From a virus, in IMG/VR virus record IMGVR_UViG_3300042549_003888, positions 1 to 22,140 of that record: DNA of 22,140 bases; one strand, written 5' to 3'. Below, in pieces: positions 571-19,917 of this stretch. Below the pieces are notes generated by a model. The model made no database searches and was not told where the DNA came from. It worked only from the letters and a program-made list of their open reading frames with translations. The translations under genes and the position numbers were made by a program. Every line of letters begins with the position of its first letter. The first letter of the stretch is position 1.

Positions 571-1275
571 TTGCGGTACGCACTTTCTTTAAGTCTACTT
601 CTACTCGTAAGCCTCGCGCTTCCAAGGTTCGTTCTAGCGAACCAGCAGGAGATCTGGTGCGGGGGAACGAATCCGTACACGGGGGAATGGAAACTATGGG
701 GTCCATTCTGGTGGGCAGACGAACCCGATCCTTGGACGCAGATCTGTCTGCCGAATCGACCGTGGGACCCAACTCCAGTGGAGCCGACCCCATCGCCGAG
801 CGAGAGTGCGGAGCCTAGCGTTGAGCCGACACCGAGCCCTACACCCGAGCCAACGCCCGAGCCGACGCCACCGACGACGCCAGAGCCGACTCCTGATCCT
901 ACGACAGAGCAAACTCCAGAGCCAACGCCTACTCCGACTGAGAGTCCGAGCCCAACTCCGACTCCTCGGCCAACGGTAGCGCCAACTCCACCACCTCCGC
1001 CTCCGTCGCCAACGGAGCCGCCACCCACACCAACGGAACCGCCACCAACGCCAACGGAGCCACCTCCATCCCCAGTGGCTCCGCCCCCTGATCCAGTAGC
1101 AGCAATCTCAGAGAGCATCGGACAGGCCGTTGCAGCGATCACTAATCTAGGAAAAGATCTCTCGGTCGAGGAGAAGGAAAAGGCAGCACCAGTCGCGGTG
1201 GCAATCATCGTAGGCCAGGTAGCCCAAGCAGCAGCGGCTGCTGTCGCAGCCTCGAGCACAGGGAGAAAGAAATGA
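571..1275 (+). CDS. Secreted Pro-Thr-rich protein with C-terminal membrane segment
   Basis: This 234-aa protein starts at TTG, directly after the preceding TGA, with AGAGGA at 561-566 upstream. Residues 1-23 are a clear signal peptide: a basic start, a leucine-rich core and VLA before a predicted cut at A23. There is no lipobox cysteine at the cut. Residues 24-66 form a small Trp-rich segment with two cysteines (C30, C59). Residues 66-175 are Pro/Thr/Glu/Ser repeats that should be extended and exposed. Residues about 205-228 are hydrophobic and end in GRKK, which suits a membrane anchor. It lies upstream of holin-like and lysin genes, so a role in lysis (a spanin-like envelope-spanning part) or at the host surface is possible. 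No family was recognised and the function is unassigned. The next gene starts in an ATGA overlap. Confidence 0.8.
   Translation: MRYALSLSLLLLVSLALPRFVLANQQEIWCGGTNPYTGEWKLWGPFWWADEPDPWTQICLPNRPWDPTPVEPTPSPSESAEPSVEPTPSPTPEPTPEPTPPTTPEPTPDPTTEQTPEPTPTPTESPSPTPTPRPTVAPTPPPPPPSPTEPPPTPTEPPPTPTEPPPSPVAPPPDPVAAISESIGQAVAAITNLGKDLSVEEKEKAAPVAVAIIVGQVAQAAAAAVAASSTGRKK
1012..1074 (+). repeat. Three tandem 21-nt repeats encoding TEPPP(T/S)P
   Basis: Three in-frame copies at 1012-1032, 1033-1053 and 1054-1074 encode TEPPPTP, TEPPPTP and TEPPPSP (residues 148-168 of the Pro-Thr-rich protein). The copies differ mostly at third codon positions, so they are not very recent duplications. They sit inside a longer irregular Pro-Thr-rich tract. 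Confidence 0.85.
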
Positions 1276-1442
1276 TTTCACGCATCATTAATGATCTAGT
1301 CGGTGGGTCATGGACGATCCTCGGACTTCTCTTCGCAGTCGTGGTGCTCCCAGAGGGCCAGACCCAGAGCACGATGGCAGCGATCTTTACGGGCCTCACA
1401 GTCGTTTGGCTGGTGACTGGCCCACTTCGATGGAAGGATTAA
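1272..1442 (+). CDS. Small two-helix membrane protein, holin-like
   Basis: This 56-aa protein starts at ATG, overlapping the previous stop as ATGA, and ends at TAA 1440-1442. GGAG at 1262-1265 lies six bases upstream. Two hydrophobic stretches at residues about 14-27 and 35-52 are separated by a short polar turn (PEGQTQST). The C-terminus is basic (LRWKD). Two membrane helices, a tiny size and a position just before a lysin gene fit a class II holin, which forms membrane lesions that release or activate the lysin. Family identity was not recognised. Another phage membrane protein, such as an antiholin to the holin-like domain downstream, is equally possible. The start codon of the lysin follows three bases after the stop. 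Confidence 0.7.
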   Translation: MISRIINDLVGGSWTILGLLFAVVVLPEGQTQSTMAAIFTGLTVVWLVTGPLRWKD

Positions 1443-1445
1443 GCA

Positions 1446-2609
1446 ATGCAGTATCGGGTCAAGTCGCAACTCTATTCCGACGCAGAGGCGCAACTAAAGG
1501 GCGGCAAGCAGATCCTTGATGACTGCACCTGGTCATCCTGTGCCGCCGCAGTCTCGTGGGCTTCTGGCTACACGGTCGACTACAGCGCCGCTGACGGTGT
1601 AGCAGCAATGAAGAAGGTCACTGGCCGCAAGGATATTCAGGGCAAGTCCGACAACGGCGGCTCTCTGCCTGAGGCTGCGAAGGTCATCGCGCACCTAGGT
1701 GGCAAGGCTCGATACGCCAAGTCGTGGGCTGATGCAGTCGCGGCAGCCAAGGCTGGCGCTGCTCTACAGATTTGGGTGCAGCAGCCAGTCGGCTACCCAG
1801 CAGGCGTACCAATCAGCAAGTGGCACGACGGATGGCGACGATACTGGACGAAGAAAGACGCTAAGAAGATTACCGACGGCTACGGCCATATGACTTCCGC
1901 TGGCTGGTGTGCAGACCACGGCTGGCAGTGGGCGTGCCCCACGCGCGACGAGAAGGTCGCCGCTGAGAAGTACGGCGTGCCAGTGACCGAAGAGCAACTC
2001 CGCCAGATCGCCAGCAGCAAGTCCAAGGCAAAGAAGGCTGGCGTTGACTACAAGTGCATCCTGATCGTCACCCACCCAGGCAAGGCCGTCGCGCCAGCCC
2101 CAGTGGCTGCTCCAGTAGTGGCTCCTGTCCCAGTAGTTGTTCCTGCTCCAGTGGTCGCGCAGGTAGCCCCCACAATCAACGTAGAGGCACCTAGGAAGCC
2201 CGTAGAGGCTCGAAAAGTAGAATCTGGTACTAAGAGACCATCCGAACTAGATTTGGCCGTAAAGGCCCTGGAAAAGGCGGATTGGGCATCAATCGGAGCA
2301 AAGGGTCTGGCTCTGGCAGGAAACGCGGCTGAGGCCGCTAAGAAGGAGAAGACCATCATGGGTAAGATTGGCGCATGGTTCAAGTACATCACAGACAATA
2401 GCAAGATTGACGAGATGCTGCTCGATGCAGTTCGGACGTTCCTCACCGTGTCGATCTCGGTCGCACTTGGTTTGGGCATCCCCCTGCTTGACATTAATGG
2501 CGGCGACTTCCGAACGATCATCAGCGCAGGCCTTGCGTCTGCCCTCCAGATCGTCGTGAAGGCCCTTGATCCTAACTCGACAGAGTACGGCGTCCAGAAG
2601 AAGAAGTAA
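1446..2609 (+). CDS. Cysteine-peptidase-like endolysin fused to a holin-like domain
   Basis: This 387-aa protein starts at ATG with AAGGA at 1434-1438, seven bases upstream. Residues about 20-165 look like a C39/papain-like cysteine peptidase. QILDDCTWSSCAAA carries the likely nucleophile C27 (C32 is an alternative), GGSLPEAA at 71-78 matches the usual second element, and GYGHMTSAGW carries the likely histidine H148. This fold serves as a peptidoglycan endopeptidase in several actinophage lysins. Residues 211-250 are a Pro-Ala-Val linker. Residues about 320-380 hold two hydrophobic stretches (328-347 and 356-373) ending in KALDPNSTEYG, which looks like a short actinophage holin. There is no signal peptide. 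Fusion of lysin and holin is unusual; an internal start at 2358 may also release the holin part. The peptidase call rests on motifs only. Confidence 0.75.
   Translation: MQYRVKSQLYSDAEAQLKGGKQILDDCTWSSCAAAVSWASGYTVDYSAADGVAAMKKVTGRKDIQGKSDNGGSLPEAAKVIAHLGGKARYAKSWADAVAAAKAGAALQIWVQQPVGYPAGVPISKWHDGWRRYWTKKDAKKITDGYGHMTSAGWCADHGWQWACPTRDEKVAAEKYGVPVTEEQLRQIASSKSKAKKAGVDYKCILIVTHPGKAVAPAPVAAPVVAPVPVVVPAPVVAQVAPTINVEAPRKPVEARKVESGTKRPSELDLAVKALEKADWASIGAKGLALAGNAAEAAKKEKTIMGKIGAWFKYITDNSKIDEMLLDAVRTFLTVSISVALGLGIPLLDINGGDFRTIISAGLASALQIVVKALDPNSTEYGVQKKK
2343..2360 (+). promoter_or_regulatory. Internal ribosome-binding site and in-frame ATG inside the lysin gene
   Basis: AAGGAG at 2343-2348 is followed after nine bases by ATG at 2358-2360, in the frame of the lysin gene (residue M305). 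The spacing is within the usual range for translation initiation. The start falls just before the holin-like domain and after the Pro-Ala linker, where an independent holin gene would begin. Confidence 0.5.
2358..2609 (+). CDS. Candidate nested holin (internal start product, 83 aa)
   Basis: Starting at the internal ATG, the frame encodes 83 residues identical to residues 305-387 of the fusion protein. It begins MGKIGAWFKYITDNSKIDEM, has two hydrophobic segments (about residues 24-43 and 52-69 of the short product) and a basic end (KKK). Size, hydrophobicity and layout match a free-standing phage holin. In-frame internal starts are known in phage lysis genes (dual-start holins, shorter lysin products). 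Whether both products are made cannot be decided from sequence. The AAGGAG could instead be coincidence in a KKEK-encoding stretch. Confidence 0.4.
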   Translation: MGKIGAWFKYITDNSKIDEMLLDAVRTFLTVSISVALGLGIPLLDINGGDFRTIISAGLASALQIVVKALDPNSTEYGVQKKK

Positions 2610-3037
2610 TGTCCGACGCGTGGGTCTATGTCGGCGGGACATTTGACCTCTTCCATTATGGACACGCAAAGTTCCTCGAGCAGTGCAGCAAGCACGGCAA
2701 GGTCATCGTCTCGCTCAACACAGATGACTTTGCTTCCCGCTACAAGCGAGAACCAGTACTCTCCATCGGTGAGCGCATCGAGTCGCTTCGATCCTGCAAA
2801 TGGGTCAGCGACATCTGCGTCAACATTGGGGACGAAGACAGCGGCAGGACAATCGAAGGCCTAGGCGACAAGAACATTAAATTCATCGCCCACGGAGACG
2901 ACTGGTCTGGGGATTCCCTGCTAGAGCAGTTGGGCATCGACCAGGACTGGCTGGAGAGTAAGGGCATCAAGATGCTCTACGTCCCATACACGGCTGGCAT
3001 CTCCACCAGCGAGATTATCAAGAGGGTCCAAAGTTGA
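2609..3037 (+). CDS. Cytidylyltransferase, TagD/glycerol-3-phosphate type
   Basis: This 142-aa protein covers the whole length of a short cytidylyltransferase. Residues 9-19 (GGTFDLFHYGH) hold the HxGH nucleotide-binding motif (H16, H19). K46 and P49 lie in the substrate loop before GERIESL. HGDDW at 95-99 and ISTSEIIKR at 131-139 match the conserved HGDDW-like and IST.I motifs. The family moves CMP from CTP to a small phosphate acceptor such as glycerol 3-phosphate, releasing pyrophosphate. The true acceptor here is unknown; a sugar or ethanolamine phosphate cannot be excluded. The start overlaps the lysin stop by one base (TAATG). The glycosyltransferase downstream begins inside its stop, which suggests they work in one modification pathway. 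Confidence 0.88.
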   Translation: MSDAWVYVGGTFDLFHYGHAKFLEQCSKHGKVIVSLNTDDFASRYKREPVLSIGERIESLRSCKWVSDICVNIGDEDSGRTIEGLGDKNIKFIAHGDDWSGDSLLEQLGIDQDWLESKGIKMLYVPYTAGISTSEIIKRVQS

Positions 3038-3669
3038 AACTCGCAGTCATCATGACGATGTACAAGCGGCACGACAAGACGCTCCCGCTGCTTGATCGAG
3101 TGCTCAACTCCACCAAGGCCCCAGACGAACTCTGGATCATGTGCGAGGATGAGGATGACGTTTTTGTCGCCGAAGAGTCGCTGAAGGAACTGGGCAGGGA
3201 TGACATCAAGCCAATTCTCTGCCAAACCCCACGGAACGGCGAGCGCTACGCTCTAATCCCCTACTCCAACAAGATCAACTACGCGCTGGACCGCACCGAG
3301 GCCGACGCCATCGTCTACGTAGACAATGGGTCCATGCCATCAGAGCGTAAGTTCGAGGTTATGCTCCAGGCGCTAGTTGACAATCCCGATTGGGGTGCTG
3401 TATACTGTACGCAGCAGCGTACAGGGTATCGAGAAGAAACCCATGGTGCCGACAAAGTCGTCCAGAATGGACACGGCATCCTGAACTATACGCAAGTCAT
3501 GCACCGACCAACCACTGCGCGTTGGACCACGGACACGCGACATGCCAATCCAGATCTTGCAGATGCTATTTTCTGGCAAGACCTCGGAGGCCCGTTCTAC
3601 CCAGTAGACGAAACAAACATTCATGATGTTCATCATATGAACTCGGCTTCCGCCGAAGGAGTTATCTAA
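3034..3669 (+). CDS. GT-A glycosyltransferase (family 2-like)
   Basis: This 211-aa protein starts at TTG (TTGA overlap with the previous stop), with GAGGG at 3022-3026 seven bases upstream. The next Met, residue 7, would remove most of the first strand (KLAVIMTMYKR), so TTG is preferred. Residues 70-110 follow the GT-A layout: NGERYALIPYSNKINYAL, then DAIVYVDNGSMPS, where VDNG takes the place of the usual DxD metal site. A later ADAIFWQDL (177-185) resembles the acceptor-side region. The enzyme would transfer a sugar from a nucleotide-sugar donor; donor and acceptor are unknown. It sits between a cytidylyltransferase and the terminase block, so modification of virion or host envelope is plausible. 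Confidence 0.75.
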   Translation: MKLAVIMTMYKRHDKTLPLLDRVLNSTKAPDELWIMCEDEDDVFVAEESLKELGRDDIKPILCQTPRNGERYALIPYSNKINYALDRTEADAIVYVDNGSMPSERKFEVMLQALVDNPDWGAVYCTQQRTGYREETHGADKVVQNGHGILNYTQVMHRPTTARWTTDTRHANPDLADAIFWQDLGGPFYPVDETNIHDVHHMNSASAEGVI

Positions 3670-7719: not shown

Positions 7720-10514
7720 TGGCACGACGAGGACGATTCACCAATCCTAACGCTGGCGGTCAGAACCTTAGTTCCCTAATCGTTTCGCTCCTTCGCGAAC
7801 GAAAGAACGCTGAGGAGCAGTTGCTGCTAGAAAGATTCCGCAACAAGGAAGTTAGCGCGGAAGAGGTCCAGGCATTCTACGATAACTGGGCGTCTACTTC
7901 TGGCTTCACTGAGGGTACGCTCGAGTTTGATCAGTTGAACCAGCGCAAGAAGAACGCGTACGATACTGGTATCAAGTACCGATACGACGAATTGCTTGCA
8001 GAGTTTAACAGCAACGGCGGAAAAAATTACTCGGAGTTGATGGACTTCCTCAACGGAACAGCCCAAACGGTCAACGACAAGAATAACGCCCAGCAATACT
8101 TGGACCTGCGCAAGAGCATTACGAACAACTTCATCAACGAGGCATCAAGCCAGTTGCAAATGGGCCAGATGACGATTGATGAGTTTAGGTCGCAAGTTGA
8201 CGCTGGAATTAACTCATCCTTTGCCAAGGGTTCCAAGGAGTACAACGACTCTAAGTACGCAGCCTTTGTTGCTGAATACAACGGAGAGTACACCAAGTAC
8301 CAGAACCGAATCAAGGCTGGAAAGAGCGGAGCATACTCTGGCTTTGTTAACTTCCTAAACCAGATGAAGAGCCGAATGTCCACAGAGGGCATTGGTGGGG
8401 AACTTCTTACGCGAATTGACGCGGATATTGTTTCGACCAGGGCATCTGGCGCTGCCGCTGCTGGCGGAGCACAAGTTGACAGGGTACTTAAGTCACAGGG
8501 AATCCTTTCGGAACTATACGCAGAGGCCTTGTCGACAAGTGGAATTATGGGGGCAGAGTTGACTGCCGAAGACATTGCTGCTGGGAAAACCTACTCAATC
8601 GCTAACATTGCAAATAATCCAGGCGCACTAGAGACCTGGATTACCATGATCGAGAATGGCACTGCTCAGATTGACGCAGAATTGGCAAAAAAGTACGACA
8701 TTGACAGCCCAGACGACATTCGCAGAATTCTGGACGTTGAAGTACGAAGTATCGAAGTTGCTGGCGCTGCCGCAAATCGCCTAAACCCTACTGAGAATAA
8801 CGCAGCATGGGCATCACTTGGCAAGACCCTTTCCCGAACGATTGGTAGCAGAACCCTAGTTGACGATGTCTCCGAGGGGATGAACCAGTACGCATCAGAC
8901 CTCCAGAGGGCTGGTGCATCTGGTGACGACATTGCTATTGCACGAGCAACCAGCGAATGGCAGAAGTTCTTGGCTGGTCAGAAGTCAGCGTATGGAGAAC
9001 TCCAGGGAGATGCAAACCGAGGCCTTACTGGTCGTCAGGTTCTTGACGAGCAACTTGCGACCTACGGCGTATACGGAACTGCCTTTAAGGCTGCATTGTC
9101 CAATACCGAAAAGGGAATCGCTGGGAACGTTCTTGGAGTTGGTGACCAGACGCTAGAGGACTTCTTCCAGGTGCCTGCTGGGTTTAGCGGCGATGGCGTA
9201 GTGACATTCGGTGCAACCTACTCCAACGGAAGCATCCCAGAAACACTAAGGAACTACGACGACCTAGTAAGCGGACGTAAGGTTCAGGTAGTCACAAGGA
9301 ACCCACAGACTGGTACCGTTACTAAGGTAACAACTGACCCGATTGCTGTTGGTCCAAGTGGAAGACTTGGTAACACTCAGATTGCAAGCAAGGATGGCGG
9401 ATACCTTTCGGTCATTGCGTACGTTGACGGGCCAAACGGAGAAAGAGTTCCAGTTATTCAATCTATTAAAGCAAGTGGTACAATTCAAACTGCTGCTGGT
9501 ACGGCAACCACAACGTGGGGATACCAGTACGAAATGGAAAGCGGCAAGGTAGTTTACGTCTCTACCAGTGGTCAGGCGTATGACGAGAATCCATTTGACA
9601 AACCGCCAAGGCTTCTGGAGGGCGGCGTTTACTTTGTCGAGGGCGGAACCTCTGGTGGCGCTCAACCGCTGAAGTCAGCACCATCAATTGACATCAACTC
9701 GGCTCTGAATGGCGCCGATCCAAAGTCGTTTTACGCACTGAACCAAATTGCCGAAGGACTTACCAAACTAGTCGGAGAAAACTCTGAATGGTTGCAGACT
9801 CTTGGCGCTGTTGACCGAGCAAACATTGTTGGTGAGATTGGCCAGATCGAATCAAAAGCCAAAGAGGCCCAACTTAATAGCACACAGATTCTTCTTAGGA
9901 ATGCTACGCGACAGGGAGCAGACTCTAATTATATCCGTAGCCTACAGGCACAAATTGTCGAACTGAAAACTGGTGGTTCCCAGGTAACCCAGTTTAATCT
10001 TGTTCGGGAAAATTCCCAGAGTTACGAAGAGATTGAGCCAGGTCTCTACAAGTTGCGACAGCCAACTGGACCAGGGGGAAGTGTTGGTGGATACGCTCTT
10101 GGGTTTGGCCAAGACTACAATATCGACGAGCAGGGAAGGGAACTTCCAGATGTTGTCGACATCAGAATTCAGGCTCCAAAGCCAACCCCAGGAATTACGG
10201 GTGCTGGATATTCACCATATCTTGCTAACGCTATGGCTTTGCAAGGTTACAAACCTGGAACCCAGAAGTCACCAGACTTCTTTAGGAATACTCCAGCAGC
10301 AGCGCCAGTCAATTCTTCGTACCTGGCATTGGCTGGATATGCTGGGGGAGCGCCAACAACTCCAACCGCTACGGCACCAGCGCCAATTGTTCCAGCGGCT
10401 ATGACTCCGTTCGTTGCCGATGATCGAGAGGCTAGGCGAGCACTAATTGCCCAACAGAGCCAGACAACGCCGCCGCCACCAACAGTTAAGCCATTCCGTA
10501 TTGGAGGTCGCTAA
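7719..10514 (+). CDS. Large structural-region protein of unknown function (931 aa)
   Basis: The family was not recognised. The start ATG overlaps the portal stop (TAATG); GAGG at 7705-7708 is a modest ribosome-binding site. Residues 1-400 are mostly helical. Residues 39-113 and 145-216 appear to be two divergent copies of one unit, each with an acidic helix, a G(T/S).E(F/Y) element and an ending near (M/V)(D/N)FLN. Residues about 480-660 are rich in Gly, Thr and Val and look beta-rich. Residues about 820-931 are Pro/Ala/Thr-rich and probably disordered. There is no signal peptide or clear membrane helix. Position between portal and an even larger protein suggests a virion component, perhaps an internal or ejected protein. 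Hand GC counts of about 48-53% in several 60-nt lines are lower than in the portal gene. Confidence 0.85.
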   Translation: MARRGRFTNPNAGGQNLSSLIVSLLRERKNAEEQLLLERFRNKEVSAEEVQAFYDNWASTSGFTEGTLEFDQLNQRKKNAYDTGIKYRYDELLAEFNSNGGKNYSELMDFLNGTAQTVNDKNNAQQYLDLRKSITNNFINEASSQLQMGQMTIDEFRSQVDAGINSSFAKGSKEYNDSKYAAFVAEYNGEYTKYQNRIKAGKSGAYSGFVNFLNQMKSRMSTEGIGGELLTRIDADIVSTRASGAAAAGGAQVDRVLKSQGILSELYAEALSTSGIMGAELTAEDIAAGKTYSIANIANNPGALETWITMIENGTAQIDAELAKKYDIDSPDDIRRILDVEVRSIEVAGAAANRLNPTENNAAWASLGKTLSRTIGSRTLVDDVSEGMNQYASDLQRAGASGDDIAIARATSEWQKFLAGQKSAYGELQGDANRGLTGRQVLDEQLATYGVYGTAFKAALSNTEKGIAGNVLGVGDQTLEDFFQVPAGFSGDGVVTFGATYSNGSIPETLRNYDDLVSGRKVQVVTRNPQTGTVTKVTTDPIAVGPSGRLGNTQIASKDGGYLSVIAYVDGPNGERVPVIQSIKASGTIQTAAGTATTTWGYQYEMESGKVVYVSTSGQAYDENPFDKPPRLLEGGVYFVEGGTSGGAQPLKSAPSIDINSALNGADPKSFYALNQIAEGLTKLVGENSEWLQTLGAVDRANIVGEIGQIESKAKEAQLNSTQILLRNATRQGADSNYIRSLQAQIVELKTGGSQVTQFNLVRENSQSYEEIEPGLYKLRQPTGPGGSVGGYALGFGQDYNIDEQGRELPDVVDIRIQAPKPTPGITGAGYSPYLANAMALQGYKPGTQKSPDFFRNTPAAAPVNSSYLALAGYAGGAPTTPTATAPAPIVPAAMTPFVADDREARRALIAQQSQTTPPPPTVKPFRIGGR

Positions 10515-13500
10515 TGCCAATTAAGGGTCTAGGACCATCATCTCAGGCTTCGGTCGGCCCACAGGCTGACGTACCAACGAGGCCGCTGGGTGGAGCAGCA
10601 TCAAACCTGTCCACGATGGGCAAGTTTAACCTAGACATTACAAAGCCAGCCGAAAGCCTTGGCGGTACTGCCGAGGGATTTGCTGGTGGCATTCAGGCTG
10701 TCGGAAAGGCTGTGGTCAGCGTTGTCGAAAACATTCCAATTGCTGGTCTTGTTACAAAGCCAGTAATTGGCGCCGTGGGTGCGGTTGCTGACGCAACTGT
10801 AGGTCAGGTCGTCAAGGGAATCTCATCTGGTCCAATCGGCAAGGCTGCAAATGACGCCGCTGGTTTTGCGTTTAATGTAGCAACTCTTCCGCTACAGGGT
10901 GCCCTTAAGGTACTTACCGTGCCAGGACAGGAACTCGCGAAAAAGGCCATGGAGGCCCGAATTAAGTCCACCGCTATGGGCAAGAAGGACATCGCAACGT
11001 TCCTTTGGTCCGAGGCTCCAAGGGACGCGATTCGTCGGTATAAAGATGGTGAGTCAGCAGAAGATATTGCTGCCGACTACGTTGGCCAGTTTGGTATTGG
11101 TGAAGCAAGTAAGGGAGCCTACAGCCAGGATGCGCTGGCTAACTTCCTGTGGACTATGTTGCTAGACCCAATTAACATTGTTCCAATCACTAAGCCATTC
11201 ACTGTTGGAGCCAAGGCCGCTCGTCTTTCTGCCGCTGGTGTAGATGGGCTTAATGCCGCAGCGAAGATCGCCAAACAGGATGCTTCCGCAGCACTTAAAC
11301 TGGGGAACAAGGAACTTGCAAAGAGGCTAACTTCAGAGGCTACACTCCGAGCAGAGGAAGCCGTCTTCCTGCAAAAGTACGACTGGGCTGGAAAGATGTA
11401 CACCGCAACCTGGGGCAAAGTTGCAGATAAGTGGTCTCAGGTGACTGGCGGTCGACTGAGCAAAGAACTTGCACAGCAGCCAGAGCGAATCGTCGGTGGC
11501 AAGGCAACCACTGCAATGCTTGACGAACTTACCGCCACCACTGGAAAGCAGAACGTAGATGAGGCACTGGGAAACGCCGTCCTAACCACCGTCAACGCAA
11601 ACAAGGCAGCCGTAGCCGAAACGCTTGTAAGCACGCAGCGAAACGTCTGGCGTGCCTCCAGCCAGAACCTCGTCAAGACCCTGTACGCCGCTATTGGAAC
11701 TGGGTCGAAGGGCGCTGACTCGCTTCTTGCCGTCCAGTACGGCAGCGAGAGGACCATTAAGGACTTCCTCACTGACCTTGGATACTCCAGCGCAGACCAG
11801 GCTCGGATCGTCACCGCTGTGGAGAATGCCTACACTCCAACCGTTAAGGCATTCTATGGCAGCGACGCTGTTGCCAAAGTTTATAGCGAACTAACCGATG
11901 TTATGTCCCGAATCGACGTGAAGGCTCGACCAGACTTCTACGTCAATGCCGCCGAGGCGCTTGGTAAGTCCAACCTTCGCTATGCCGTTGACGCTGGCGT
12001 TGAACTCATCCAGCGAAACAAGTTGAACCTCATCCGCTTTGCAGGAGACGAGACACAGTTCGTCGACTACCTAAGCCGAACGTTGCAGTTCGGTTTCAGG
12101 GTTTCCGCCGACAAAGCCCAGGAGATTGCACGAAATCAGTGGGCAAAGAACGCTGGAAATACCAGAGACCTTCTGAATCTTCTCGAGACTGGTCGCATGG
12201 CTGCGTTCGGTCGCTCGATGCGCGAGATTGCGCTGGAGCGCGCCAAGGAGTCCGACGGGCTTGCTGCTATTGAGAAGGCCGCCGCTGGGCGACACGAGGC
12301 TGTGGCAAAAGCGTACTTCCCAGAACTTTCAGGAGAAGAAGCGATTGCCGTCGGTAAACTGTTTGACCAAGTGGCGATTACTGGCGCGGCTCGAGAAGGC
12401 TTGACGCCCAACCAGTGGTACGCCAAGTACACCTATGGTGTCTCTGGACTGAGCGAAACAGATGCTGCCGTATCGCTCGTCGACGAACTCTACAGCACAA
12501 CGGAGTTGACTAAGGCCGCGTTCAGGGAGGCAAAGACCCCTGCCGAGATCCTTGAAGTTGCAAAAACGATTAAACCAACCAAGCGCATGGTTGATGCTGG
12601 TCTTGGTGGCCAGTTGGCAGTTGAAACGGTTGATACGGCCAAGGGAGCATTTGCTCTCCCTGGAGGAACTGCCGCACTCGACGATCTAACGCCGTACAAC
12701 ATCATTGACGAGGTCGTTATCGCCTCGCAACCTTACGAAATCATTGAGGCCTTGCCTGGAGACATTCGGGTAAAAATGCACTTAAAGATGACTGCCTCAA
12801 AAAGCATTGACATGTCCGATCCGATTGCCGTGGCAAACAGGGTTGTGTTCTCCTTACTATCACCTCGTCGCAATCTGTCTGGAAACGCTGCCGTATATCA
12901 GGCTCTACGAATTCGTAACGCGGATGATCTTGCAGCATTTGTCGAAAGGTATGGCAACGATGTTAAGAATCTTCCAAACCTCGACGCTGGAGCATCTGCT
13001 CGACTTGGCAAGAGGATTGCCGAGGACTTTGGCTTCGACATGGGAGCAAAAGATGGAGATGTGACTGGGATTATCTCCCACTTGTCTGACGCCGCAAGAG
13101 TCCTAGTTCTTGCAAAAGAAAACCCTGAATTCTTCCTAATTAAAAATGGCGAAAGCCTAACCCAATTTGCCGAAAGGTTGACACTTCTTAATGGCGTGCA
13201 ACTTAAGGTCGGATCGTTTGCTGTAGAGTTGATGCGAGCATCCGACGCAGCAGTCGGCGCTATTGATGCCCAGATGTCTGGTGGTGTTCTTAAATGGGCT
13301 ATGGACAACGGTATTGACGGTAACCTTATCAAGGAACTCCGAGACATCGGTACTAAGGAATCAAATAAATACGCAGACGAACTGGAGTCTCTGATCCCAA
13401 GGCTTAAGGCTGGGGAGAACGTGTATGGTCCTAGCGCCAATGGAGCAGAGTCAACTTTGGGACCAAAGACTATTGATGGATCAAACGCCAGTCCATTTAC

Positions 13501-16500
13501 CAAGGCTTCGGTAGGAACACTTCCAAACTGGTCAACTACTAAGGCGACATCTGCAAAAGTTACCTTGCTAGAGGGAAGTTCTTTCAAGGTCATGAACAAG
13601 TACGTTAGCATGATGGCAGACCAGTGGTCAACCGTTGGGCGAATTGCAGATAACGGAGAAAGAATCGTTTACACTGGGCTGGACAAGATGTCTGGAGGAC
13701 AAAAGCAATGGTTTATTTGGGATATTTTCCGAAAGCAGTTGGAGCCACACCAGTGGCTACATCGAGATGCTGATAAGTTGGCAAAGCCAACTATTGATCA
13801 GGTTCGGAATGCGATTTCCTCAATTCGTTCTTCTGGTGGGTTCACTACTAAGAGGCAGTTTGATGGCGTAGACCCACGCGTAATGTCCGAGTTCCTTGAG
13901 GAGCGCGGCGGTCAGGTACTTGGCAAGGCTAAGTTCTACCGCAACGGAAAGTCAGCAATCGAACTCTTTAAAGGCGCAGACGTCACGACGGCGATCCACG
14001 AGATCGGCCACATCGGACGACGACATCTCTCCGATGTTGATCAGCAGGTCGTCCTCGAGGTTTATGGTGCCAAGGGTGGCTGGACCACAGAACTCGAAGA
14101 GAAGTTTGCCAAGGACTTTACTAACTACATGTACACTGGACGGGCACCAACGCCTGGCCTAGTCGACCTATTCAGCAAGATCCGTCAGTTCATGGCAGAC
14201 CTTTGGTCCAAGGTAAGCAAAACCGAGCAGATTCACCCAGAACTGCGTGACGTCTTTGATCGCATGCTGAGCCACAACGGCCCACAGCCGCTGCCAGATG
14301 CAGACACGTGGTCGCGCATTACGCTCATCAGCGAGCGAAGCCTAACTCAGAATGCACGAGACGCCGTTTTAAAGCGCGTCGGCATGATCCTTGGCGAGAC
14401 CGACGGTAGCGAAACGCTCCGCTCGGTCGATGACGCCGCAGTAGATCTGACGCAGCGCATTGACGACGGTGTGGTCGTTCGTGGCGACGGCGCAACGTTC
14501 AACCCAATCCGAAACACGGTTCAGGTTGCTGGTAAGGACTTTGGCTTCATGAACTCACCATTCCTGAGTCGAAGCGTTGTCCTGAAGGGTGCAGACCGAG
14601 AGCGATTCCTTACGGACAAGGCGTTCCAGAAAGAAGTCCTCGGCAAGTACCTCAAGAGCAACGAGGATCTACTATCACTCGACAACCACTACATCGGGCT
14701 TTATGATGACGCCAAGATCGACACGTACTACATCGATGTCTCGATTAAGTACGACAGCGTCCAGGAAGCAATCGAGGCTGGTACTCGAGCGCAGCAGCAG
14801 TCGGTATTCAGGCTCAACGACTACGGCAAGTACTTCCTAGACACGCCGCTTGGTCGACTCGGGGCAGAGCGGGAAAACGCAAAGATCACTCGATCCGCAC
14901 TAGACATCAGCCCTGGCGAGATTGAGAAACTGAGCAAGCCTCGCATGGGTGCTGATCAGTTGGAATCCGCGCTCCGACCAATCGCTGACGAACTTGTCGA
15001 GAAGTACGATGACGTTGCTGCGGTCTGGTGGAACAAGGGCGGCTCTGCTGCTGACATCGTTGACTGGGTACGAAACCACCCAGAGATCACCGTACGAGAA
15101 CTAACGGAGACCGAGGCTCGGCTCTTGCCAGACGGGTTCAAGGCCCGACAGGCTGACATTGCCCTCGGAGGCTACCGATACGGCGTTGCCCCCAAGGGCG
15201 GCATCATCGAGCGCACCACTCGTGTGTCCGATGGGTTCGGCGGTACCCGAATCGCAACTTCAGCGCAACCATTCGTCGACCTGCTTGACACGACGGCAAT
15301 AAACAAGTTGGATGAGGTAACCGCTGGTGTCAATAAGCGTCGCGGATTCCTCGACAAGTTCAGGGACAACATGACTCGCGAGTACGGACCTGACGTGGTC
15401 AGGACGAACTACGTCGAGCGATTCGTCACCGACATTACCAAGAAGACCATGATCACCGCACGAGAGGCTGAGATCATCTTGGCCCGCGTCGGCAACCTTG
15501 CCGCACGCAAGGAGACCACGATGCGCGGCCTGTGGTTCGAGCGCGATCAGGTACAGACGATTTTCCGCGAGGTGCTCGGTGACGCCGAGTACTTCAAGTA
15601 CATCGAAAACAATGATCCGCTCACTGACCTCTTCACTGCTGCTGCTGGCGACGTAAGCGTCGTCGGCCTGCTTCCTGGCTTCAGCGGTCGGGCCAAGGCG
15701 TGGAAGCCCGTTATGGGCGCGGTCACCGACCGTGCGTTCCCGCTCTTCCGCTTCGGTAAGGGCAACCCGTTCTTCCGCCAGATCCTTGAGCCAATCGAGA
15801 CCAAGATGATGGGCCTGATCGACAGGATTAAGGCTGATCAGGTCGATGAGTTCCTCGGCGACAAGCCATCGAAGTTGGTCCGCCGAATGACCGAGGACAG
15901 CCGATCAGTAACGAACGAGATCGCCGAGTCCGTATTCTATGACCAGGAGAAGGCCGCAGTCGCTGCAATCTCCGCAGTACGCGAGAAGCCAGCATTCAAC
16001 AATGCCGTGTCTCGAGTGCTCAAGGCAAAGGGCGCGATCAAGGACGGCGTCTGGGCGATCAATAACCCAGAAGAGTACAAGTTGATGATCCGCGACATCA
16101 TGGCATCCGAGTGGGCCGTGAACGAGATGTACGACCTCCTTAAGAAGGCAATGCCAGAGACATTCGAGCAGTTCGCTGAGGCTGGCCTCACCGACGGTCG
16201 AACCGTCATGGCTCGCATCCTTGAGGACGGCATGATCCAGTCTAGCCCAGAGGCATTCGCTGCGGTACTCCGACGCGATGCTGGCCCGACCATCGGGCTA
16301 TGGGGCAGGGCACTTGCTGAATCTGGCATCCCTGAGTCGAAGGCTCGAGAAATCGCAGCCGCCGCCCACGGTGTCTTCACTGACGCCATGATCCGTGGAA
16401 CGCGACGTGCCAACAAGTACCAGTTCTTCAGTTCCTACCGCTCATGGTTCGAGCGTTCGATCAACCATCCGTTCCTCGGAATCTACCCGTACTCGTACAT

Positions 16501-16954
16501 GACGCAGAAGGCGATTCCGTGGATGCTCAAGATGATGTTTGCTCCGAAGATCGCTGGACACGTCCGACCTGGATTTGGGTACATCAATGCCATGCGCCTG
16601 CAAGAGGCACTCATCGTTGATGCCAACACAGACCGTGGATTCATGACGTCCGTCGCAGAGGCACGACCTTTGTGGTATGCTTTGAACATCATGGTTCCCG
16701 CGACGCCCACGAACCTGGGCTTCGCCGCTCCGTACTGGCTACGCAAGGGCGTCCTCGAGCCAGCGCAGCGCAACCAGCCGCTCACGTTTGAGCAACTTTC
16801 CAAAGTTCCGCCACTTGTTGGCGAGACCATCATGCGCGGCACCGTGCTCGGTCAAGGTGCTGCACTCCTCGGCGGCGTTGGCGCTCTAGGCAACGCAATA
16901 GAGGAAGACCTGAGCGACATCCAGGTTGATGTCAACAGGTTCTTTAATCCGTAA
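10514..16954 (+). CDS. Giant multidomain phage protein with HEIGH zinc-protease motif (2146 aa)
   Basis: ATG start with GGAGG at 10503-10507, six bases upstream. Residues 45-150 are Gly/Ala/Val-rich with hydrophobic stretches (AVVSVVENIPIAGLV, KPVIGAVGAVADATV) that could insert in membrane. Residues 150-1100 are mostly helical and unassigned. Residues about 1118-1250 look like a zincin: IHEIGH with H1162, E1163, H1166 and a downstream ELEEKFAKDF with a candidate third ligand (E1195/E1196). Residues about 1330-1445 (GFMNSPFLSRSVV, NHYIGLYDD, QQQSVFRLNDY) recall a small domain seen in MuF-type proteins of actinophages. Residues 1960-2010 (RSWFERSINHPFLGIYPYSY) begin an aromatic-rich end module. 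Sited after portal and before scaffold, where minor head proteins are encoded, it is probably virion-packaged and may be ejected into the host; a tape-measure role is less likely there. Confidence 0.85.
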   Translation: MPIKGLGPSSQASVGPQADVPTRPLGGAASNLSTMGKFNLDITKPAESLGGTAEGFAGGIQAVGKAVVSVVENIPIAGLVTKPVIGAVGAVADATVGQVVKGISSGPIGKAANDAAGFAFNVATLPLQGALKVLTVPGQELAKKAMEARIKSTAMGKKDIATFLWSEAPRDAIRRYKDGESAEDIAADYVGQFGIGEASKGAYSQDALANFLWTMLLDPINIVPITKPFTVGAKAARLSAAGVDGLNAAAKIAKQDASAALKLGNKELAKRLTSEATLRAEEAVFLQKYDWAGKMYTATWGKVADKWSQVTGGRLSKELAQQPERIVGGKATTAMLDELTATTGKQNVDEALGNAVLTTVNANKAAVAETLVSTQRNVWRASSQNLVKTLYAAIGTGSKGADSLLAVQYGSERTIKDFLTDLGYSSADQARIVTAVENAYTPTVKAFYGSDAVAKVYSELTDVMSRIDVKARPDFYVNAAEALGKSNLRYAVDAGVELIQRNKLNLIRFAGDETQFVDYLSRTLQFGFRVSADKAQEIARNQWAKNAGNTRDLLNLLETGRMAAFGRSMREIALERAKESDGLAAIEKAAAGRHEAVAKAYFPELSGEEAIAVGKLFDQVAITGAAREGLTPNQWYAKYTYGVSGLSETDAAVSLVDELYSTTELTKAAFREAKTPAEILEVAKTIKPTKRMVDAGLGGQLAVETVDTAKGAFALPGGTAALDDLTPYNIIDEVVIASQPYEIIEALPGDIRVKMHLKMTASKSIDMSDPIAVANRVVFSLLSPRRNLSGNAAVYQALRIRNADDLAAFVERYGNDVKNLPNLDAGASARLGKRIAEDFGFDMGAKDGDVTGIISHLSDAARVLVLAKENPEFFLIKNGESLTQFAERLTLLNGVQLKVGSFAVELMRASDAAVGAIDAQMSGGVLKWAMDNGIDGNLIKELRDIGTKESNKYADELESLIPRLKAGENVYGPSANGAESTLGPKTIDGSNASPFTKASVGTLPNWSTTKATSAKVTLLEGSSFKVMNKYVSMMADQWSTVGRIADNGERIVYTGLDKMSGGQKQWFIWDIFRKQLEPHQWLHRDADKLAKPTIDQVRNAISSIRSSGGFTTKRQFDGVDPRVMSEFLEERGGQVLGKAKFYRNGKSAIELFKGADVTTAIHEIGHIGRRHLSDVDQQVVLEVYGAKGGWTTELEEKFAKDFTNYMYTGRAPTPGLVDLFSKIRQFMADLWSKVSKTEQIHPELRDVFDRMLSHNGPQPLPDADTWSRITLISERSLTQNARDAVLKRVGMILGETDGSETLRSVDDAAVDLTQRIDDGVVVRGDGATFNPIRNTVQVAGKDFGFMNSPFLSRSVVLKGADRERFLTDKAFQKEVLGKYLKSNEDLLSLDNHYIGLYDDAKIDTYYIDVSIKYDSVQEAIEAGTRAQQQSVFRLNDYGKYFLDTPLGRLGAERENAKITRSALDISPGEIEKLSKPRMGADQLESALRPIADELVEKYDDVAAVWWNKGGSAADIVDWVRNHPEITVRELTETEARLLPDGFKARQADIALGGYRYGVAPKGGIIERTTRVSDGFGGTRIATSAQPFVDLLDTTAINKLDEVTAGVNKRRGFLDKFRDNMTREYGPDVVRTNYVERFVTDITKKTMITAREAEIILARVGNLAARKETTMRGLWFERDQVQTIFREVLGDAEYFKYIENNDPLTDLFTAAAGDVSVVGLLPGFSGRAKAWKPVMGAVTDRAFPLFRFGKGNPFFRQILEPIETKMMGLIDRIKADQVDEFLGDKPSKLVRRMTEDSRSVTNEIAESVFYDQEKAAVAAISAVREKPAFNNAVSRVLKAKGAIKDGVWAINNPEEYKLMIRDIMASEWAVNEMYDLLKKAMPETFEQFAEAGLTDGRTVMARILEDGMIQSSPEAFAAVLRRDAGPTIGLWGRALAESGIPESKAREIAAAAHGVFTDAMIRGTRRANKYQFFSSYRSWFERSINHPFLGIYPYSYMTQKAIPWMLKMMFAPKIAGHVRPGFGYINAMRLQEALIVDANTDRGFMTSVAEARPLWYALNIMVPATPTNLGFAAPYWLRKGVLEPAQRNQPLTFEQLSKVPPLVGETIMRGTVLGQGAALLGGVGALGNAIEEDLSDIQVDVNRFFNP

Positions 16955-17573: not shown

Positions 17574-18542
17574 GCTACCACAACGACCAGCACTACGGGT
17601 TTTGCAGCCCTCGTACAGGAACTTGTTTCTGCCCGAGCGCTCGAGGAACTCCGCGCACGTGCTGTACACGCGATGCCAGGGCTTTACGTCCCTGCTCGCT
17701 TCATTAAGGGCACGAACACCCTCCGCTACGCTCGTTACGCTGACCTCGCGGTCAACACGACGCCGCTTACGGAAGGCGCCCCACCTACTGACCAGGAACT
17801 GACGATTTCGTCCGAGTTCTTTACTGCTGTGCAGTACGGCTCGACGGTCGCAATCTCCGACCTGGCCAACATTGACTCGCCACATGACCTTGTCAGCATT
17901 GCTGCCGAGCGTGTAGCGTATCAGGCAGTTCGCTCGATGGACCAGATCGTCCGCGATAACATCCACAGCACCGCTCTCACGAGCGCTGTCTTTGGTGCTA
18001 CCGCTTCGGGCACGCTGACCCAGAACGCCGCCAACAGCGCAGTTGCTGCTGCTGGCCTCCTGAACGGTGCCTTTGTCAAGCAGATCGTTGCTCGACTTAA
18101 GGGTGCCAACGTTCCTCAGTTCGCTGATGGCACGTATCGCGCAATCATCCATCCTTCACAGGAGTATGACTTGATCAGCGATACGGCTGTAAACGGCTGG
18201 ATCGAGTCGCGCAAGTACGTGAACAACACCGACCTGCTTACGGGCGAAATCGGTATGTTCGCTGGCGTGCGCTTCATCGTGTCTTCGGACGCCAAGGTCT
18301 ACGCGACCGCTGGCGCTTCGTCAGGCAACGTGTACGCCGCAACTTTCCTTGGTCCTGACGCCTACGCAATTGGCGACAGCCAGACCCTCCAGTCGTACTT
18401 CGTTGCGCCTGGTGGTGACCACACCGACCCACTCGCACAGAAGGCGTTGGTCGGTTACAAGATGCGCTTCGGCTCCCTCCTCCTCGATGAGGCAGGCGCT
18501 CGTTATCGCATCGTCAAGACCCAGGCTACGGTCGGAGTCTAA
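17571..18542 (+). CDS. Major capsid protein, N4-gp56-like HK97 fold
   Basis: This 323-aa protein has the pattern of the N4-gp56-type major capsid family. An N-terminal helix (LVQELVSARALEELRARAV) leads to VPARFIKGTNTLRYARYADL. Next come LTEGAPPTDQELT and a long spine-helix region with VAYQAVRSMDQIVRDN (about 112-127). Later FADGTYRAIIHPSQEYDL (184-201) and GEIGMFAGVRFIVSSD (226-241) are typical of the central fold. About 323 aa is within the usual size for the family. It assembles into the icosahedral head around the scaffold. No N-terminal propeptide is obvious. The gene ends 18 nt before a very stable hairpin, which suggests that transcription is set separately here. Confidence 0.92.
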   Translation: MATTTTSTTGFAALVQELVSARALEELRARAVHAMPGLYVPARFIKGTNTLRYARYADLAVNTTPLTEGAPPTDQELTISSEFFTAVQYGSTVAISDLANIDSPHDLVSIAAERVAYQAVRSMDQIVRDNIHSTALTSAVFGATASGTLTQNAANSAVAAAGLLNGAFVKQIVARLKGANVPQFADGTYRAIIHPSQEYDLISDTAVNGWIESRKYVNNTDLLTGEIGMFAGVRFIVSSDAKVYATAGASSGNVYAATFLGPDAYAIGDSQTLQSYFVAPGGDHTDPLAQKALVGYKMRFGSLLLDEAGARYRIVKTQATVGV

Positions 18543-18548
18543 TCGGTT

Positions 18549-18597
18549 AGGGCGCCGATACCCCCGCCTGGTCCCATGGACTGGGCGGGGGAGCCCT
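18549..18597 (+). terminator. Strong hairpin after the major capsid gene
   Basis: CCCCCGCCTGGTCC (18561-18574) pairs with GGACTGGGCGGGGG (18578-18591) around a CAT loop. This gives 14 continuous pairs, two of them G-U type. An outer stem AGGGC (18549-18553) with GCCCT (18593-18597) adds five pairs. There is no T tract after it, so it fits the stem-only terminators common in high-GC bacteria or a transcript-stabilising end. It begins seven bases after the capsid stop. Confidence 0.72.
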
Positions 18598-18605
18598 GCT
18601 AGAAT
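18577..18605 (+). promoter_or_regulatory. Candidate sigma70-type promoter overlapping the hairpin
   Basis: TGGACT (18577-18582, four of six matches to TTGACA) is followed after 17 bases by TAGAAT (18600-18605, five of six to TATAAT). The bases TGC just before make it an extended -10 (TGCTAGAAT). The -35 element lies in the right arm of the hairpin. It would give a leader of about 70 nt ahead of the GT-B gene. Short promoter matches arise by chance, so confidence is moderate. Confidence 0.45.
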
Positions 18606-18652
18606 CAACGGAGAGGCCTGCCAGACGAGCAAGGAGCCTCGAAAAGGGTCAG

Positions 18653-18684
18653 GGTGGTACCTAGATACCCCCAGAGGGTCGAAT
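18653..18684 (+). promoter_or_regulatory. Leader hairpin and ribosome-binding site of the GT-B gene
   Basis: GGTGGTA (18653-18659) can pair with TACCCCC (18666-18672) around a six-base loop, with one mismatch. AGAGGG (18673-18678) follows at once and lies six bases before ATG 18685. A stem abutting the ribosome-binding site could modulate translation. The nonamer GATACCCCC occurs here (18664-18672) and at 18557-18565 by the capsid hairpin. Confidence 0.3.
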
Positions 18685-19917
18685 ATGCTGAAAGTCCTAG
18701 TTTGGGGACACGTCGAGGACGGTCCTTGCGCCTACTTCCGTGGGCACCAGTTCACCGAGGAACTCAAGAAACTCGGAGTTGAATACAGAGGACTGAACAA
18801 GGTCAATTTCAACGTTAAGCCTGGCGGCGAAAAGATGCTAATGCCAGAAGCCTTCAATAAGGGATTCATTGAGTTCGACTCCACGGACGTTGACTGGGCT
18901 GACGTCGTGGTCTTCCGACGATATTACAACACAACGCTCTCCTGCGTGGATGAGAACTGCCCATTTGTTACATTTTCGTATCCTGATGCAATCAACCATC
19001 CGCATGGTTGGAAGGAACGAGACCTCATTACCCGCCTGCTCTGGCCAGCATTTAGATTTGCTGCCCACAACAAGGCGATTGTCTACGAGACCGACGACGA
19101 CCACTTCAACATCAAAGACTGGAACGGCTACAAGAAGGACGTCCTTCCAGAATTGTCGATGATTGAAGAGATGGCCCAGCGTGCTGATCTGGTCACTACA
19201 TCAACAGATGTTATCGCAAAGCGCTACGCACGATTTAACGACAACATCAGGGTTATTCGCAACGCGGTTGACCCAGAACTCTACAAGGCAACTGCCGAGC
19301 GCCCAGTATCGGACAAGCCGCGCATGGTGTACTACGGTAGCACCGCTCGCATCCGCGACTACGCTGGGTTCCCAGAGGGTCCACGCGGCAAGATCGTTGG
19401 CGGATACGCTGGCAAGGCAGTCGAGGATCTCAAGAAAGAGATGACCCGCGTCTTCATCGGCGTTAATCCTGGAACCGAAAACATCATTACCCCGCTCTTT
19501 GACGAGCAGGTTCCCTACGTAGAAGGCATCGCCAAGTTCTGCGAGACGCTTGCGAACAGTCACCCAGACATCGGCATTGCGCCGCTGATGGGCGACGACT
19601 TCGACCAGGCCAAGTCAGAACTTCACTGGTTGGAATACGCCATGGTTGGCGGTGCGTTCATCGGAGAACGAATGCGTAACGGTGGACCCTACGAGGTAGT
19701 CCGAGACGGCGTTGACGGACTGCTTGCCCGTGGTCGTGGCGAGTGGTACGAGGCGATGAAGAAATTAACACGCAGCAAGGATTTGCGAGAACAACTCGCA
19801 GGTGCGGCGCGTGAGCGTGTGCTAAAGGAATATCACTACAAAGATCGAGCAAAGGAATGGGCTGACGCCTTCAAATGGGCAGCCGAGAATAAAGGCAAAG
19901 GAGCCAAGATCGCATGA
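18685..19917 (+). CDS. GT-B glycosyltransferase (family 4-like)
   Basis: This 410-aa protein starts at ATG 18685. The frame is open further upstream through the capsid gene, but MLKVLVWGHVEDGPCAYFRG is a natural first strand, so this start is chosen. The N-terminal half has VDWADVVVFRRYY (69-81) and IVYETDDDHFNI (132-143), as in GT-B acceptor domains. The C-terminal half has RVIRNAVDPELY (189-200), RMVYYGST (213-220), DIGIAPL (295-301), LHWLEYAMVGGAFIG (313-327) and GGPYEVVRDGVDGLL (333-347), the donor-binding pattern of family 4. It would move a sugar from a nucleotide-sugar donor. It stands between capsid and adaptor genes behind its own candidate promoter, so glycosylation of the virion is a reasonable guess. 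The next gene overlaps by four bases (ATGA). Confidence 0.88.
   Translation: MLKVLVWGHVEDGPCAYFRGHQFTEELKKLGVEYRGLNKVNFNVKPGGEKMLMPEAFNKGFIEFDSTDVDWADVVVFRRYYNTTLSCVDENCPFVTFSYPDAINHPHGWKERDLITRLLWPAFRFAAHNKAIVYETDDDHFNIKDWNGYKKDVLPELSMIEEMAQRADLVTTSTDVIAKRYARFNDNIRVIRNAVDPELYKATAERPVSDKPRMVYYGSTARIRDYAGFPEGPRGKIVGGYAGKAVEDLKKEMTRVFIGVNPGTENIITPLFDEQVPYVEGIAKFCETLANSHPDIGIAPLMGDDFDQAKSELHWLEYAMVGGAFIGERMRNGGPYEVVRDGVDGLLARGRGEWYEAMKKLTRSKDLREQLAGAARERVLKEYHYKDRAKEWADAFKWAAENKGKGAKIA

Follow-up and report, generated by a model that had tools for sequence, protein, structure and literature searches.

One gene in the window, the whole 22,140-nucleotide stretch of viral DNA that we analysed, likely codes for both a cysteine peptidase fused to a two-helix membrane domain and, from a start nested in the same frame, the membrane domain as a free protein. 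Holins and endolysins are normally encoded by separate genes, and one controls the release of the other. We read the gene as the source of two lysis products, a tethered peptidase and a free holin-like protein that would assemble together, and we give this reading a probability of roughly 0.6. Comparison with relatives establishes, at the level of sequence, the fusion, the existence of split relatives and the retention of the internal start.

A peptidase, a linker and a membrane domain in one frame

The ORF at 1446-2609 on the + strand opens with ATG and runs in a single frame for 387 aa. When we read the DNA directly, we found this ORF, the C27 and H148 residues of the peptidase motif, the AAGGAG at 2343-2348 and the in-frame ATG at 2358 exactly where the earlier note had placed them (Table 1). 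Relatives are encoded on 177 stretches in IMG/VR. Among virus contigs, 104 unique sequences retain the fused form, while the two parts are separate in other relatives, so that the proposed fusion of a peptidase with a membrane domain in one gene holds. The carriers are a group of uncultured phages. A tblastn search of 50,697 phage records gave zero matches, whether the query was the fusion gene, the peptidase of a split relative, the free holin-like gene, the L203 membrane domain or the terminase, and a search of genome contigs returned one MAG contig labelled Rhodobacteraceae, which we did not count as host evidence.

Table 1. Positions in the window of the fusion gene, its parts and its upstream neighbour.
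Feature	Position	Strand	Evidence
56-aa two-helix membrane protein, possible second holin or antiholin	1272..1442	+	hydropathy, conservation
Whole fusion gene: cysteine-peptidase domain, linker and two-helix membrane domain	1446..2609	+	relatives
Papain/C39-like cysteine peptidase domain, putative lysin, residues 1-210	1446..2075	+	AlphaFold2, Foldseek, L117 profile match
Q8, invariant; candidate oxyanion-hole Gln	1467..1469	+	fused and split relatives
C27, candidate nucleophile, DDC motif	1524..1526	+	invariant in fused and split relatives
H148, candidate catalytic His, YGHM	1887..1889	+	invariant in fused and split relatives
Linker, residues 211-304: Pro/Ala/Val-rich, then helical up to the internal site	2076..2357	+	alignment
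Putative internal ribosome-binding site AAGGAG	2343..2348	+	DNA, relatives, pairing energy
Internal start codon ATG (M305)	2358..2360	+	ATG 60/81, GTG 11/81 at aligned column
Nested ORF, free 83-aa two-helix holin-like protein	2358..2609	+	a gene of its own at 27 loci
Predicted membrane helix 1, residues 332-350	2439..2495	+	hydropathy; model helix, low confidence
Predicted membrane helix 2, residues 353-371	2502..2558	+	hydropathy; model helix, low confidence

In structure prediction, the N-terminal domain takes the form of a papain/C39-type cysteine peptidase. Residues 1-210, modelled with AlphaFold2 from 23 relatives, reached a pLDDT of 89 and a pTM of 0.89, and Foldseek matched this model to staphopain, the peptidase domain of ComA, the C39-like peptidase 3erv and PeiR, a pseudomurein endoisopeptidase (probability 0.95-1.00, E about 1e-3 to 1e-2, TM about 0.4-0.6). 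C27, H148, Q8 and D168 are unchanged in an alignment of 23 diverse relatives, and the first three are likewise invariant in the split relatives. Searching PDB, Pfam and PHROGs with the window protein gave no significant match. The split relative L117 covers nearly the whole Peptidase_C39_2 profile (PF13529) with an E of 2.3e-4 and 22.2 bits, just below the curated cut-off of 24 bits; the window protein has no match to this profile and no record exceeds its cut-off. The third catalytic residue is uncertain because the usual position of the catalytic Asp reads ACP in most fused genes, that of the window included, with Cys164 in the third place, and ADP, with Asp there, in L117-type relatives as well as in L094 and L114. 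Peptidoglycan is the putative substrate. Diverged DDC..H peptidase domains joined to closely related linker-membrane modules were observed in L094, L111, L114 and L125.

The linker is variable in sequence in the alignment of 23 diverse relatives. Its dN/dS of 0.35 (0.23 in the peptidase, 0.21 in the membrane domain) is a sign of constraint, and the entire frame is therefore translated as protein. Cleavage of the linker, by the protein itself or by a host protease, could free lysin and holin after translation and leave the internal start a secondary role, and the flexible, variable linker and the cysteine-peptidase fold of the N-terminal domain itself would both suit such a scheme; we consider it quite improbable, however, since the aligned linkers showed no conserved cleavage motif and the retention of a Shine-Dalgarno (SD) sequence and start codon would be left unexplained.

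Both predicted membrane helices follow the Pro/Ala/Val-rich linker, with mean hydropathies of 1.96 for the first and 1.22, only moderate, for the second. The full-length AlphaFold model is poor beyond the peptidase, and we drew nothing from it for the membrane part. The domain shows the small size, the two predicted helices and the adjoining lysin-like gene by which holins are recognised. The earlier note had expected residues 320-380 to score as membrane helices and to match a holin: hydropathy does predict two hydrophobic helices there, while comparison with Pfam and PHROGs returned no holin family. A homology to r1t holins, which we suspected from an ExxxRTF-like pattern, was dropped when hhalign gave a score of 15.0, at the level of reversed controls (mean 14.9, maximum 15.8). 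The names lysin and holin thus fit the C39/papain fold, the two helices, the position in the gene cassette and the lack of CHAP and Amidase_2 domains among 12 related records, but not the curated family thresholds, and because neither part reaches such a threshold we infer both labels; they are the best reading of the two parts, with indirect support.

The internal start in the window and its relatives

Nine bases separate the AAGGAG at 2343-2348 from the ATG at 2358, from which 83 aa remain. The calculated pairing of this site with the 16S tail is -9.7 kcal/mol, and nearly all of the window's gene starts that we compared pair less strongly: the one exception is the gene of a 2146-aa protein (-10.5), the fusion gene's own first start at 1446 scores -8.9, and no more than 1% of the 287 ATGs on the + strand of the window reach the strength of the internal site. 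A within-gene synonymous shuffle was not significant for the window type (p about 0.5-0.7) because Lys-Glu codons often spell AAGGA, so that the evidence beyond chance for the internal site comes from the relatives. The SD codons show only a mild reduction in synonymous diversity (rank 26 of 175).

When we aligned 81 fused genes, the M305 column held ATG in 60/81 and GTG in 11/81, valine at this column being always encoded by GTG, and in the remaining 10/81 an ATG was found one codon earlier or three codons later. As in lysis genes with internal starts, an SD sequence and an in-frame ATG or GTG are conserved at the domain border. The earlier note had held that fused homologues without the border site and its Met would refute a nested start. 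Such homologues exist in one clade, the KASNG type, from which both are gone, but there the linker carries a stronger site, AAGGAGGTTCCA or AGAGAGGAGTTCT, a few bases 5' of an ATG or GTG. The amino acids that spell this site differ (KEVP, ERSS, KEAS), and the predicted product of the linker start has about 141 aa. Given this stronger site, we regard the nested start as moved in the KASNG-type clade and not as refuted. L203 bears another two-helix domain, with an AAGGGAG and an ATG of its own just upstream of that domain. In the KVKG clade (L069, L072, L075, L076 and L079), the site is weak or oddly spaced.

The best linker site was stronger than those of linkers with shuffled codon order across 18 lineages (Fisher combined p 2.9e-8, an optimistic value as the lineages share ancestry and are not fully independent), while an equal-length control on the peptidase domain gave p 0.98. 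Of the in-frame ATG and GTG codons, 13/75 in linkers and 0/125 in peptidase domains had a strong ribosome site before them. Taken gene by gene across the relatives, synonymous shuffles were mostly not significant alone. Their outcome in many genes, sites nearly as strong as the natural ones, is what would be expected if AAGGAG and ATG were a chance product of Lys/Glu-rich codons. This explanation is disfavoured and strikes us as very improbable in the face of the codon-order shuffles with their peptidase-domain control, the split relatives and the relocated site of the KASNG-type clade.

At 27 loci, a peptidase gene is followed by a separate, neighbouring two-helix gene. These split loci form four groups on the peptidase tree, L213 being one of them, and to account for the fused and split forms, at least four changes are needed on that tree and at least three on the tree of the membrane domain. 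We left two loci out of the count: L198, where the peptidase is followed by unrelated sequence, is a likely chimeric contig, and L179 runs to the end of its own contig. At most split loci, the AAAGGA-type ribosome site and the ATG of the free membrane gene fall, in the alignment, on the internal site of fused genes, as is the case in the L117, L130, L131 and L148 types. For example, in the L117 type AAGGAAAAGAAATGAGC follows the peptidase stop, and the aligned place in the fused L021 reads AGAAAGGAAAAGGGTATGAAC. The free start of L133-type split genes is preceded by another, different site. In L213 (1558-2648), which is close to fused relatives, the peptidase ends in a stop and the linker and membrane domain lie in another frame, a natural split inside a fused clade. 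The proposal of a nested start at the domain border is thus upheld among the relatives, where the site is retained or re-created across the fused lineages and a start homologous to M305 occurs in most split ones.

The split relatives with the same site would also be expected if two adjacent genes had fused and the old ribosome site and start merely lingered, the full-length protein alone being of importance, and the weak codon-level conservation inside the genes agrees with such a fossil. However, the M305 column tolerates only ATG or GTG in most lineages, one clade has its stronger site elsewhere and in other amino acids, L203 has its own site before another membrane domain, and the linker-site signal holds over 18 lineages. 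We therefore find a fossil site improbable and favour a nested start that is in use. In L094, a nearly identical linker-membrane module stands behind a different DDC..H..ADP peptidase, as if the module had been swapped between enzymes.

Gene surroundings and proposed mechanism

The fusion gene lies a few genes upstream of those for the terminase and portal. Directly upstream of it is the gene of the 56-aa protein, which shows good conservation in some clades, the window's among them, but was not detected upstream of the fusion gene in many other relatives; this protein could be the holin, instead of the C-terminal domain of the fusion. Its presence next to the fusion gene, the membrane domain's lack of a holin family match and the peptide processing that is common among C39 peptidases would all agree with a membrane-anchored peptidase that has no role in lysis (it might, for instance, act on surface peptides of the host by processing or degrading them), its C-terminal helices being a mere anchor. 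An anchor, however, would not need the free gene of the split relatives, and no Amidase_2 or CHAP domain was found in 12 related records, so that we hold this to be an unlikely account. In one related record, G001 (L218-L220), which at 41,373 bases with identical 127-base ends is probably complete as a genome of this phage group, no wall-hydrolase family match was found among the proteins scanned, a set smaller than that of all its ORFs.

Other genes were observed around the fusion. The 234-aa protein at 571-1275 has a signal-like helix at the N-terminal end, a hydrophobic helix at the C-terminal end and a long stretch rich in Pro and Thr, and it has the look of a wall-spanning protein, either a surface protein or a lysis accessory. 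The 2146-aa protein at 10514-16954 carries a HEIGHIGRRH zinc-peptidase motif. Sugar-nucleotide and glycosyltransferase genes (a cytidylyltransferase, a GT2 and a glycosyltransferase) lie beside or inside the structural region at 2609-3666 and 18349-19917, and G001 has sugar genes, including dTDP-sugar ones, at L218:119-1788 and L218:4413-4973. The position of such genes near the structural region suggests glycan modification.

We infer that both products are made, that they act as lysin and holin, and that events take the following order. Translation from 1446 would give the C39/papain-type cysteine peptidase, a putative peptidoglycan hydrolase, followed by the flexible Pro/Ala linker and the two-helix membrane domain, while translation from 2358, directed by the AAGGAG at 2343-2348, would give the membrane domain alone as a free holin-like protein. 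The free two-helix protein may form lesions in the membrane, and fused copies may join its assemblies, which would retain the peptidase at the membrane up to the moment when the assembly opens and presents the tethered enzyme; the ratio of the two products may exert control. More tentatively, the gene may encode a lysin that carries its own holin, in which fused and free copies co-assemble, opening exposes the peptidase at the hole, and the linker-membrane cassette is exchanged between peptidases. If this were true, release would be independent of the diffusion of free enzyme. The natural split and fused forms would allow a direct test of whether a tethered lysin works, and they would offer a way to learn how lysis time depends on the ratio of two products and how a fusion of genes can spare a regulatory start. 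They also provide a putative lysis module for a phage group with no isolate match among the 50,697 phage records.

Comparison with known lysis systems

We found no description of a peptidase-holin fusion with a nested start in the open-access literature that we searched. The peptidase shares its fold and the placement of Cys and His with Peptidase_C39_2 and papain-like peptidases (staphopain, the ComA peptidase domain, PeiR), but the window gene falls below the curated Peptidase_C39_2 cut-off and differs from L117-type relatives in its third residue. The membrane domain is similar to r1t-type actinophage holins in size, in its two helices and in its position beside a lysin gene, although the profile comparison was no better than reversed or shuffled controls.

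Dual-start holins such as lambda S and phage 21 S also give two in-frame membrane products from one gene, which can tune lysis; their products differ by a few residues, whereas here the difference is a 304-residue enzyme and linker (PMC9671378). In EpicDab, a holin-major capsid fusion has been proposed, which likewise places a holin-like membrane part inside the gene of another protein, but there the partner is a capsid protein and release by a protease is proposed, while here the partner is an enzyme and the free form would come from an internal start (PMC9671378). The natural holin-endolysin fusion of the TpeE type in Clostridium sporogenes similarly unites holin-like and lysin parts in one polypeptide; it has a one-helix holin with the endolysin C-terminal and occurs in six genomes, whereas the order is reversed in our gene, with a two-helix domain C-terminal to the enzyme in about 100 unique phage sequences (PMC9527704). 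The passages of that study consulted here mention no internal start, in contrast to the nested start proposed for the window gene (PMC9527704).

Internal starts are known from the endolysin genes of mycobacteriophage Ms6 (lysA), CTP1L and LysIME-EF1 (PMC3111421, PMC4777826, PMC7098653, PMC9430671). As proposed here, one lysis gene yields two in-frame products, the shorter from an internal SD sequence and start at a domain border; in those systems, however, the internal start yields a wall-binding domain or a smaller lysin, whereas in our gene it would yield a two-helix membrane protein.
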